Positions 11,967 to 24,017 of a stretch of DNA of 64,000 nucleotides are shown piece after piece. The stretch's first letter is position 1. Every line of letters starts with the position of its first letter. The notes beneath the pieces are model-generated. The model worked only from the letters and a program-made list of their open reading frames with translations, did no database searches and was not told the origin of the DNA. Source of the stretch: Amphibalanus amphitrite. Its lineage: Eukaryota; Arthropoda; Thecostraca; Balanomorpha; Balanidae. The stretch is from the NCBI RefSeq assembly GCF_019059575.1, contig NW_024882934.1:101518-165517 (forward strand), written 5' to 3'. Position numbers and translations under genes: made by a program.

Positions 11967-13229
11967 GGGTTGCATCATTTCGTGAACTATGTTTTCACCC
12001 TATATGGCCTTGGTTTTCTCTTTCATTTTTAACTGCGATATACGCTGTAATTAGTTAAAAATAAATTGATAGGTAGTTATATCGTGGAAGCTGTCACTTA
12101 AGGCTATTTCAAGGCCATCTTAAGAGATTAACGATTTGAAGCTGCAGGTAGCTGGTGAGATTTGAGAAGTGCTGTTTTATCCAGTTTCTTGCTGGAGTTC
12201 TGAGGCCAGTTTTACCAACAGAAAAATAGCCACCTGCCTGAATTTTTTTGCCTTAAGACCGCTCCATATATGGACCATGAATGTGATGGGCACGTAAGCA
12301 GATAGGACTTTACCTTACTGTTTACGCTCCGTATGTGAAGCAGTCTTCAGGCAAAAACAAAAATTCAGGTAGGCGCCTATTTTTCTGTTGGCAAAACTGG
12401 CCTCTGCTGGCTCTGCTCTGCTTCAAATTATCGAGATGAGGGTTGCAATTGTGTTGTTTGTTTAAAGTTGTATTTGGAATGCTCAGGACGGGCTTCTTAT
12501 CTGTACCTACCCTTTAAGTATCTTTCATATGCTTTTCAAGTCTAGGATGGCTTATTTGCTGGGTAAGGTGAAGTTCAGCCTGAGAGAAGGGAACAAGTCT
12601 GGTTAAGCTGTGCTTTTTCAGAAGCATTTGTCATTGTTTTGGTTATTTTAAATGTTTTCATTTCTCATCCTTCCTGATCTTGGCATTCTTGAATGGTAAC
12701 CTACTGCAAAGCATGCCAACACAGTTACACAGTCAACAAGTGTCACCAGCTGGGATGAAAAGTCTGAGCCAGGCTGCATCAAACAAGATTGAGATATATA
12801 ATTTTTACTACAAAATTCAGATATCAGCATTTAGCAACTTGGATATGAAAAGCATAAGAAAAGTTCAATAACTCCCTGGCAAACCCTATTGCATCTCCAT
12901 TAATGGTGCATCATTTTCTTGGACAATACACCAGCAGGTAGGACCTTCCTTCCCTTTCCTACTTTTTTCCTGAACAGACAGCTTTCTCCAGAGAGAGTAG
13001 AGACAATGCCCCCTTTCTCCCTCTTTCCCCCTCTCCTCTCCAGCATTGTCACTATCAACAGGCAGCATTCTTGGACTGAACTAACCCTCTCCCCTCCAGC
13101 ATAGCCACGATGAGAGGACAGCATTCCTGAACTGGGCTAACTCCCTCCCCTCCCCTCCTTCAACGTAGCCACGATGAGGGACGGCATTTCCGAACTGGGC
13201 TAACCCCCCTTCCCCTCCCCCTCCTCCAG
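11967..13229. other. Region between the LINE and the DPP8/9 gene
   Basis: Probable 5' intron or UTR of the DPP8/9 gene. It holds a 200-bp inverted repeat at 12190-12405 and, from about 12985, pyrimidine-rich tandem copies of the first recognised coding-exon edge. No further coding exon is recognised. Vertebrate DPP8/9 proteins have about 40 more N-terminal residues, so a small upstream exon could lie here. Confidence 0.5.
12190..12405. repeat. Inverted repeat / short foldback element
   Basis: The arm at 12204-12276 (GGCCAGTTTTACCAACAG...) reappears in reverse complement at about 12326-12402. The arms are roughly 75 bp with scattered mismatches and enclose about 50 bp. The outer GCTGG-GCC sequences are also loosely inverted. 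No flanking target duplication was identified. A small hairpin MITE is the likeliest explanation. Confidence 0.75.
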
Positions 13230-22200: not shown

Positions 22201-24017
22201 ATTCTACCCCGCCTCTGTATAAGGAGTTCTACGATGTCATCTTTTCTTACCTGCAATGTTGCCTGTGTCGCTAGTGCTACAATATACCCCCACATTAGAG
22301 GTTGCACAGTTTCCTCATTCCTCTGTGTCACTTGCTGCATTTCTCCGTTCTTTTTTTTTGTATAAGTTTATAGATTCAGTCTGTGCTGATATATCCTGTA
22401 TCGTTACCTTTCTGTGATATTTTCTTTGCACTCACCGATCTCTAGCTATTGGCCGGCGAACAGCTTTCCGTTGACGGCTCATGCTAAGTGCGATGGTTGT
22501 CTCTCAGTAAATCATGGCCGAGCAGAATGAGGCTACATGCCAATGGTAAATTGCAATTGAATATTCAATTTATGCGAAAAAGTCAGTTTACATATTCGTT
22601 AAAAGGGATCAAATATCATATTCGTTTCGCTGCCAAACGCTAAGCTGGATATTACAGGGCTCGTCTTCTGGTATTTATCGTAGCGTAAATCCTGCCGTAG
22701 CAATATTGGAGCGGCCGCTGTGTTGTGCTCTGCTCCCGTGTTGCCGCGGCTGCCTCGTCTCGCCGGGCGTGGCGGCCCCCCGGGGCGGCGTTTTACAGCT
22801 GGCTACCTCTCGCGCAGAGGGTCCGACAGGCTGACACCGGCGCTCGGCTATTGAGGCCGGTTTATGACACGAAATTATGCCTCGTCATAGGCGTCGCCGG
22901 TGCTCAATAATGAAATATGAGGCGGCCGTTTGAGCTAATGAAGACCGAGATGGGGCTGCAGATGTGACGCGTTTCTTGAGATTAATTTTGATGTGTCGTC
23001 CCGACGTGACGTCTTAGATGTTTGTTTGTGTGTAACTGTGCGCTAGGTTTATTGCTTCCAGTTTCCACTAAATAATGTTGATTAGAATCTGTCGGTGATA
23101 TTCAGAAAAGAACAGCACAGATCAGAACAGAACTGGACAGATCAGAACAGAACAGAACAGATCATTCAGTTCTTACTGACGACGCGGGTTCACGTATTGA
23201 TGACAAGCCGTATTTTCAATGAATCTTTGTGTCTTTGTACTCCTGTGCGCCAAGCGGCATATGCAAACATCGAGTCCTGTGTCTTGTACAACAAAAACAG
23301 CATGACATAAATGATGTCACTCTGTCTTTCCCGATGTGTGGAACACATCGGGAAAGACGGATTGACCCCAGCCTATTTGACTCGACCCCACCTGCTCAGC
23401 TACTGAATTCCAACCCCTGACTCAACCCATGTCTCCTTTTCTACAGGTGCTCAGTTACGCCAACCAGTTCCCGAGCGAGCCGAACCGACTGCTCATCTTT
23501 CACGGTCTGATGGACGAGAACGTGCACTTTTTCCACACACAGCAGCTCATCTCAGCTCTGATCAGGGCCGGCAAACCCTACCAGCTGCAGGTAAATAGGC
23601 CTCAAACCCACCCTACCAGCTGCAGGTAACTAGGCCGGTAAACGGAGGGTTGGAGTTGGTAAGCTGCAGGTAAATAGGGTGGTAAACCCTACCAGCTGCA
23701 GGTAGATAGGCCGGTAAACCCTACCAGCTGCAGATATGATTAGAATATGGGCGGTAGTGCTGAAGTGACGTCATCTCTTCTATGCATTTTTACTTGGCTC
23801 AGTTTCTTGCCACGACAAACGACGGACTTGCTTTCTACTGACGGTCTACCATACAAGTCTTTCTCATTAGCACTGTTTAAAGCAAGCAGCTACTCAGCAT
23901 CAACGTTTGTGTTCTTTCCCGCAGGTGTACCCGAACGAGCGGCACAGTCTACGTGCGCTGGAGTCTAGCGAACATTACGAGCTGACGCTTCTCACGTTCC
24001 TCAACAACCATCTGTGA
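13240..24017 (+). CDS. DPP9: Dipeptidyl peptidase 8/9 (cytosolic prolyl dipeptidase, S9B), 16 exons
   Basis: Serine peptidase that removes Xaa-Pro dipeptides from peptide N-termini. Exons: 13240-13494, 13803-13967, 14313-14448, 14922-15047, 15453-15552, 15888-16064, 16567-16726, 17179-17286, 17573-17707, 18053-18169, 18657-18965, 19894-20013, 20603-20755, 21167-21277, 23447-23590, 23925-24017. All junctions are GT-AG and in phase, giving 802 residues; human DPP8/9 are about 860-900. The beta-propeller half includes the substrate-binding double Glu in QEEF (E212/E213). The alpha/beta-hydrolase half has GWSYGG with catalytic Ser669, Asp747 in MDENVHF and His779 in NERHS. There is no signal peptide or membrane segment, unlike DPP4/FAP, and the [10 protein letters not shown] block is typical of DPP8/9. 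The start is the ATG at 13240; the frame stays open for a few codons upstream, so a spliced upstream exon is possible. DPP8 and DPP9 cannot be told apart; the symbol is the nearer family name. Several exon edges are duplicated into introns. Confidence 0.94.
14599..14688. repeat. Dispersed intronic repeat, copy 1
   Basis: About 90 bp in intron 3 (TTTCAATGTGCTAGTTGTA ... CTATTTAAATAGCTGTATA) is repeated in the same orientation at 16117-16206 in intron 6 with about 85-90% identity by eye. Its source family is not recognised. Confidence 0.8.
15391..15475 (+). repeat. Possible duplicated acceptor edge of exon 5
   Basis: ATGCAG|CGCCTAGCACGTATTCTGT at 15395-15419 resembles the true acceptor and exon start CTCAG|ACGGCGTGTACCGTATTCTGT at 15448-15473, offset by about 52 bp. 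CGTATTCTGT is identical in both. The copy is short and diverged, so this is weaker than the copies at exons 1, 11 and 13. Confidence 0.55.
16117..16206. repeat. Dispersed intronic repeat, copy 2
   Basis: Second copy of the 90-bp repeat at 14599-14688, in intron 6. Its first 15 bp (CAATGTGCTAGTTGT) also occur just upstream at 16098-16112 as a short tandem duplication. Confidence 0.8.
18505..18690 (+). repeat. Tandem copies of the exon-11 splice-acceptor edge
   Basis: Three successive pyrimidine-tract, CCAG and exon-start segments lie at 18515 (AAGTACACCGTGTTGGTGAC), 18600 (GAGTGCACGGCGCTGGTGC) and 18657 (GAATGTACGGCGCTGGTGAC); only the last joins the exon body. Read in the exon's frame, the first copy gives [15 protein letters not shown] then a stop, against [14 protein letters not shown] in the true exon. 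The second gives ECTALVQ then a stop. Use of either copy would end the protein early. Confidence 0.88.
20241..20625 (+). repeat. Tandem copies of the exon-13 splice-acceptor edge (about 60-bp period)
   Basis: Five decayed copies precede the true acceptor at 20603 (CACAG|GGCACGGTGGAGATCGCC). Their exon-like starts are at 20289, 20354, 20420, 20479 and 20534, and a still weaker one lies near 20245. The closest, at 20534, reads GGCATGGACGTGGAGATCGC followed by CGACCCCTGA, an in-frame stop. Each unit has 15-25 bp of exon-derived sequence, then CCCCTGACC/CTAACCCC-type sequence and a new AG. Exon 13 carries the catalytic serine, so mis-splicing here would abolish activity. Confidence 0.9.
21030..21205 (+). 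repeat. Probable duplicated acceptor edge of exon 14
   Basis: CTGCAG|GTGGCCTGGAGCG at about 21037-21055, followed by TGTGGTGTCCTG to 21072, resembles the true exon-14 edge CCTCAG|CTGGCGGTGCCCGGAGCG at 21161-21184 followed by CCCGTGGTGTCCTG. GGAGCG and GTGGTGTCCTG are shared, with indels between. The DNA between holds further CCTCTCACCTAACCC-type sequence like that in the exon-13 array. Confidence 0.65.
21902..21998. repeat. Short tandem duplication in intron 14
   Basis: CGTGGTCATGCTACTAGTC followed by TAACGCTGGT at 21902-21930 recurs at 21970-21998 with a few changes, a 68-bp offset. It is in the interior of the intron and unrelated to an exon edge. Confidence 0.6.
22690..22980. promoter_or_regulatory. 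GC-rich island inside DPP8/9 intron 14
   Basis: CpG-dense block in the longest intron (21278-23446), with NotI-like GCGGCCGC and embedded AT-rich motifs (TTTATGAC, AATAATGAAA, GCTAATGA). It has no open frame with family resemblance. An enhancer or alternative promoter is possible; this is inference from composition. Confidence 0.3.
23095..23165. repeat. (AGAACAGAACAGATC)n short repeat
   Basis: About five imperfect units of AGAACAG/AGATC in intron 14. It is a simple repeat without evident function. Confidence 0.7.
23324..23358. repeat. Perfect 16-bp hairpin in intron 14
   Basis: GTCTTTCCCGATGTGT and its exact reverse complement are separated by three bases (GGA), about 90 bp upstream of exon 15. 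A transcript would fold into a tight stem near the branch point and acceptor region. Confidence 0.85.
23391..23465 (+). repeat. Weak duplicated acceptor edge of exon 15
   Basis: CCTGCTCAGCTACTGAATTC then CAACC at about 23391-23415 resembles the true exon start CAGGTGCTCAGTTACGCCAA then CC at 23444-23465, offset by about 50 bp. The match is short; this is the least certain member of the series. Confidence 0.35.
23571..23733 (+). repeat. Tandem copies of the exon-15 splice-donor edge
   Basis: The true donor AAACCCTACCAGCTGCAG|GT (exon end 23590) is followed by copies whose exon-like ends fall at 23625, 23669, 23701 and 23733. Most carry CTACCAGCTGCAG; the one at 23669 is shorter. Three retain GTA(A/G) after CAG; the last reads CAG|ATATGA and has lost the donor. 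Unit length is about 32-44 bp. Here the functional copy is the first of the array, the mirror image of the acceptor arrays. Confidence 0.9.

Follow-up and report, generated by a model that had tools for sequence, protein, structure and literature searches.

Decayed tandem copies of exon edges are present in the introns of a DPP8/9 gene of the barnacle Amphibalanus amphitrite, and comparable arrays stand at the splice junctions of unrelated genes of the same genome, where exon edges and intron interiors are reached at rates within about two-fold of each other. The gene lies in a stretch of 64,000 nucleotides, referred to here as the window (contig NW_024882934.1 of assembly GCF_019059575.1, C1437:101518-165517 in our numbering), within an assembly of 807.55 Mb and 2644 contigs. 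The number, and in some cases the presence, of the copies differs between haplotypes, and we consider that the edge copies are probably a side effect of the way in which this very heterozygous genome often duplicates short segments in tandem and turns over its minisatellites.

Copies of exon edges in the DPP8/9 introns

The DPP8/9 coding gene extends from position 13240 to 24017 on the forward strand and consists of 16 predicted coding exons, whose phases all join to give a product of 802 amino acids. The closest structure in the Protein Data Bank to this translated product is human DPP9 (E 2.3e-212, residues 5-802), and, judged by its translation, the gene is an intact DPP8/9 homologue. At each of its 31 edges, 35 nt of exon were compared with up to 500 nt of the adjoining intron and with 100 shuffles; only exon bases were used because matches between pyrimidine tracts had to be avoided, and the test of exon 1 began at 13232, not at 13230. 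Five of the 31 edges (16%) matched their own intron far above the shuffles, with z values from 4.1 to 10.1: the acceptor side of exon 1 (10.1), the acceptors of exon 11 (6.9), exon 13 (4.1) and exon 14 (7.4), and the donor of exon 15 (9.1). As a second control, the remaining introns of the gene were searched with these five edges, and none scored as high. The decayed tandem copies are thus real features of this gene.

An earlier, sequence-only reading of the window had named exons 1, 11, 13 and 15 as bearing copies on these same sides, which the test bears out. It had also seen weaker signs at three further places, of which the acceptor of exon 14 now ranks with the clear cases, while the putative copies at the acceptors of exon 5 (z 1.4, p 0.11) and exon 15 (z -0.3) were rejected by the comparison of exon bases. 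Its description of the pattern as running throughout the gene went too far, as the other 26 edges gave z values between -1.6 and 2.2 in the same test against their own introns.

All five sets of copies lie on the forward strand. At exon 1 (13029 to 13260) three decayed units, starting at about 13029, 13085 and 13148, precede the working unit with a spacing of 56-66 bp. The exon 11 acceptor array (18502 to 18696) has decoys at 18502-18554 and 18593-18617 and the working copy at 18644-18696, spaced by 57 and 85 bp, and that of exon 13 (20252 to 20622) has about five decayed units, 55-69 bp apart, before the working exon, which starts at 20603. At exon 14 (21038 to 21207) there is one gapped copy with an ungapped core, at about 21038-21083, the working exon starting at 21167. 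The exon 15 donor array (23566 to 23736) is composed of the working copy at 23566-23601 and four further units, with a spacing of 32-44 bp. In many acceptor units CTAAC or CTGAC, a putative branch point, is found together with a pyrimidine tract, AG and between 20 and 40 bases of the exon. By eye, 12 of 15 copies have an intact AG or GT, a count that has no power regarding selection on the decoys. Tandem units that carry a splice site adjoin the working junction, as in a splice-junction minisatellite. None of the copies is a duplicated whole exon with both of its splice sites, since those of DPP8/9 hold at most about 40 exon bases and that of a CHD-like gene, described below, holds 46. The working copy is the one nearest the exon body, as had been pointed out from the sequence, but any segment duplicated in tandem over a junction would give this geometry. 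Across the window 23 local arrays were detected at score 12 in about 51 kb, and three shuffles of 11.5 kb gave four pairs at this score.

Exon 1 needs separate treatment. Its units contain a CTAAC-like motif, a pyrimidine tract, CAG or CAA and the start-codon context, and an acceptor at this array is unproven, because at this place the other haplotype (see below) carries CAACGTAGCCACGATG and the window carries CAGCGTAGCCACGATG. If exon 1 were not spliced at the array, ATG triplets would precede the start codon in the stretch examined, three in the window (13006, 13110 and 13174) and four in the other haplotype; two and three of these, respectively, lie inside repeat units and share the context CCACGATGA.

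Two further repeats were observed in or beside the gene. A possible weak copy of the exon 14 donor is seen at 21272-21347, where 23 bases with GTGAGTGTC recur 53 bp downstream as GTAAGTGTC, and the exon-only test gave it no support (z 1.0). Immediately after the DPP8/9 stop codon, at 24026-24219, there is a tandem array with units of about 23 bp.

The arrays in a second haplotype

The gene and its neighbours are found again on another contig, C527, with the frame of 802 codons intact. The two DPP8/9 sequences differ by 90 synonymous and 4 nonsynonymous codons and at 59 of 440 fourfold sites (13.4%), and long aligned blocks of the two contigs differ by roughly 12-18%. We read C527 as the other haplotype and not as a paralogue, because many other matches in the assembly are also paired. 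In C527, three of the 31 edges have copies (score 70, z 3.5): exon 1 (z 10.6), exon 11 (z 5.0) and the exon 15 donor (z 15.9), while the exon 1 donor (z 2.4) and the exon 9 acceptor (z 2.2) stay under the threshold. The copies at exons 13 and 14 were not significant in this contig, and the exon 13 array lacks a clear counterpart there.

Counted by eye, the exon 1 array has five units in C527 and four in the window, that of exon 11 has two (one of them a decoy) against three, and the exon 15 donor array has five in both; unit number thus differs between the contigs that we read as alleles. The sequence of the units differs as well. At exon 1 the unit adjoining the coding sequence has CAACGTAG in C527, matching the nearest decoy of the window, where the adjoining unit has CAGCGTAG, and this sharing suggests that exchange between units may have taken place. 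At exon 15, also by eye, exon and first decoy both read GGAAAACC in C527, and the exon of the window reads GGCAAACC. Between the two haplotypes the 16 exons and their boundaries match, and no new intron was seen in this comparison.

Between the two contigs intron 12 cannot be aligned and intron 13 aligns only over its first 24 and about 50 last bases, so that the bodies of both introns (20014-20602 and 20756-21166) are unalignable, though exons 12-14 are 97-98.7% identical. A repeated element in intron 13 of the window was considered as well and found no support in a DNA search, in which the body of this intron was single-copy in the assembly.

These data also bear on the view that the arrays are an assembly artefact, produced by collapsed or stuttered repeats. 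Nothing speaks for such a view beyond the fact that the sequence is a contig assembly, and the arrays of exons 1, 11 and 15 recur in a contig that differs from the window by the amount given above, and most copies are decayed, not identical. We regard an artefact as extremely improbable.

Junction arrays in unrelated genes and the strength of the decoys

Junction arrays or copies were found at five other genes, which we call CHD-, DDX18-, DDX6-, BRM- and RAD54-like, names that we presume from their protein sequences and Pfam domain. In the CHD-like gene 53 bases spanning an acceptor recur 82 bp upstream with one mismatch, and the acceptor is present in two copies in one haplotype and in a single copy in the contig read as the other. 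This case supports the proposal made from the DPP8/9 sequence that duplication affects short segments spanning the junction, after which the copy attached to the exon body alone remains exon. In the DDX18-like gene the donor, ending in GATGACCCCAAG and followed by GTCAGTG, opens an array in which one contig has 14 GGTCA[GAC]T sites and its counterpart has 5; ten GGTCAGT sites of the former, including the working one, score 8.7-10.1 with the donor matrix, nine of them 10.1. Both contigs of the DDX6-like gene carry a donor array, in which 5 and 4 donors, respectively, score at least 5 when the working one is included. The BRM-like gene shows ACCTGCAG followed directly by GT in two further copies, and in the RAD54-like gene the donor has a single copy at a distance of 114 bp. 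Since such arrays occur at the junctions of unrelated genes, the idea that the pattern is special to DPP8/9 does not survive.

This result has consequences for a functional explanation, by which the decoy arrays would tune the output of DPP8/9: partial splicing at decoys would lead to premature stops and a lower dosage. Several observations could be taken in its favor. No other competing sites in these introns are as strong as the decoys, as scored with a matrix trained on these sites and those of the other haplotype, the scores of decoys and working site being 15.2 and 17.2 at exon 11, 10.2, 9.5 and 8.4 against 13.0 at exon 13, 4.5 against 13.1 at exon 14, and 8.5 for both at exon 15. Use of any of the 11 decoys examined would lead to a premature stop, and the arrays of exons 1, 11 and 15 are shared by both haplotypes. 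However, the copies of exons 13 and 14 are not significant in the other haplotype, unrelated genes have similar arrays, and the stops, which had been put forward as a sign of function, are expected by chance, since random intron segments of 35-183 nt contain an in-frame stop in 45-95% of draws. We therefore consider it unlikely that the arrays tune the dosage of DPP8/9.

Exon edges compared with intron interiors

A scan of exon edges against intron interiors, of the kind proposed for the whole genome in the earlier reading, was run on a sample of other genes. The 68 control exons were mainly Helicase_C exons, the rest being from a CCT gene and from S9 peptidase genes other than DPP8/9, and their splice sites were predicted with a matrix trained on 60 DPP8/9 sites from both haplotypes. 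Testable edges amounted to 113 of 136, the others having no predicted site above the threshold or insufficient flank; two control exons contained a stop. The donors of loci L068 and L090 were placed at 873 and 877, where we take the conserved protein to end, the matrix prediction being one unit too far. Control z values were based on 50 shuffles and obtained for scores of at least 65 only, and a low-complexity filter was applied to the interior windows but not to the edges.

Matches were found at 5 of the 113 edges (4.4%, 95% interval 1.5-10%), one of which, at L071, is marginal (score 73, z 3.6). We read L070 and L071 as one gene in two haplotypes, so that some control edges depend on each other. 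In these loci, windows from intron interiors matched in 20 of 434 cases (4.6%), distributed over 11 of 51 loci, and exon centres in 1 of 92. Edges and interiors of other genes are not distinguishable in this comparison (Fisher p 1.0), which gives no support to a process clearly aimed at exon edges, and a strong edge excess is not seen.

Several points weigh in the opposite direction, that is, against the copies being a simple by-product of duplication. Most control exons belong to a single Pfam family, and the matrix that predicted their sites had been trained on DPP8/9. When 12 interior matches lying in junction-linked arrays (L068, L070, L071 and L074) are left out, the interior rate falls to 8/422 (1.9%), and the ratio of edges to interiors becomes 2.3 (p 0.16). 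In DPP8/9 itself the scan gave an edge excess, with 5 of 31 edges against 1 of 91 interior windows in the window (p 0.004; the interior match lies in the exon 13 array) and 3 of 31 against 0 of 98 in C527. DPP8/9 edges also exceed those of the other genes (5/31 against 5/113, p 0.038), and with both DPP8/9 haplotypes pooled in, the figures are 13/175 edges and 21/623 interior windows (ratio 2.2, p 0.03). All figures that include DPP8/9 are biased upwards, because the gene was chosen for its edges. There may thus be a modest edge excess, about two-fold, and exon-derived pairs would produce just that, since they decay more slowly, at approximately half the rate.

The same numbers are the basis on which to judge whether a mutational process targeted to junctions, such as breakage coupled to transcription or splicing, preferentially duplicates exon edges. 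The DPP8/9 excess and the pooled ratio would be in line with such a process. Against it stand the other genes taken alone, whether the interior rate is set at 4.6% or at 1.9%, and the placement of the arrays. Eight DPP8/9 arrays (the seven in-gene arrays of the window-wide count plus exon 14, which that count had missed and which adds to the exon side) were placed at random, and 2.14 would be expected to involve an exon, where 5 are observed (P 0.029); if exon-derived pairs are allowed to be detectable twice as long, the expectation rises to 3.23 (P 0.16). A targeted process is, in our opinion, improbable.

A probable by-product of short tandem duplication

Frequent duplication with minisatellite turnover remains the explanation that we favor, and it could operate as follows. 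Short segments (repeat distances here are about 23-142 bp) would often be duplicated in tandem. Duplications wholly within an exon would usually be removed by selection, and those within an intron would be neutral, with both copies decaying. A duplication straddling a junction would be tolerated, because the copy joined to the exon still splices, and, as conservation preserves its exon copy, it would be recognisable for longer. From two copies onwards, the array could gain or lose units by slippage, unequal exchange or conversion, and working and decoy units could become homogenised. We infer this mutational mechanism, the neutrality of the copies and the use of the working site in the mRNA. 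What looked like a story about one gene would then become one at the level of the genome, in which the junctions of housekeeping genes are reached at a rate within about two-fold of that of other intron sequence. Allele pairs with one or several near-identical sites would offer a direct, natural test of how splice sites are chosen and of the amount of unproductive splicing that a genome tolerates.

A broader proposition is that the genome holds very many allele-variable splice-site minisatellites and that haplotypes differ in near-equal competing sites. The matrix scores of some decoys are as high as that of the working site, and haplotypes would accordingly differ in the number of competing splice sites. 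We put this forward tentatively, as a rather unlikely possibility; if true, it would imply widespread allele-specific unproductive splicing and provide a natural allelic series for the choice of the spliceosome among identical sites.

Neighbouring features of the window

Other repeats and a second gene were observed in the window. Between 30428 and 43319 there is an inverted structure with two arms of about 6.1 kb in opposite orientation, 98.2% identical to each other and separated by a spacer of about 590 bp; each arm is mostly a 278-bp satellite in about 20 copies, with short AGCAGGGATTC repeats near the outer ends. A LINE-like element with endonuclease, reverse transcriptase and RNase H domains and a poly(A) end occupies approximately 6044-11966 and is absent at the matching place of C527. 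On the minus strand, 3782-5620 holds a Zuotin/DNAJC2-like gene with a single open frame of 613 codons and, within it, a 24-bp tandem array (4579-4670).

Comparison with known systems

In the literature searched, largely without subscription papers, no genome-wide report of splice-junction arrays was found. Internal duplications with a median of about 0.1 kb, intronic and exonic, have been described in up to 17% of genes across six genomes, as summarized in a later source (Gao and Lynch 2009, in PMC7969005). The barnacle copies resemble them in being short and internal, but differ in being tandem, amplified and placed across the junction. The gain of introns by tandem genomic duplication, in which an exonic AGGT gives rise to a new intron according to PMC3443670, has in common with our case the tandem copying of splice signals, although no new intron has arisen here. 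The closest precedent for repeat-borne donors is the human IFI6 gene, in which a minisatellite supplies multiple splice donors (Turri et al. 1995, as cited in PMC4526556 and PMC2572611), and downstream repeat units act as donors in the account given in the former. Both systems have a tandem repeat that holds a splice donor. The barnacle, in contrast, also has acceptor units with a branch point-like motif, a pyrimidine tract, AG and the start of the exon, and its arrays, found in several unrelated genes and differing between haplotypes, provide candidate extra splice sites.

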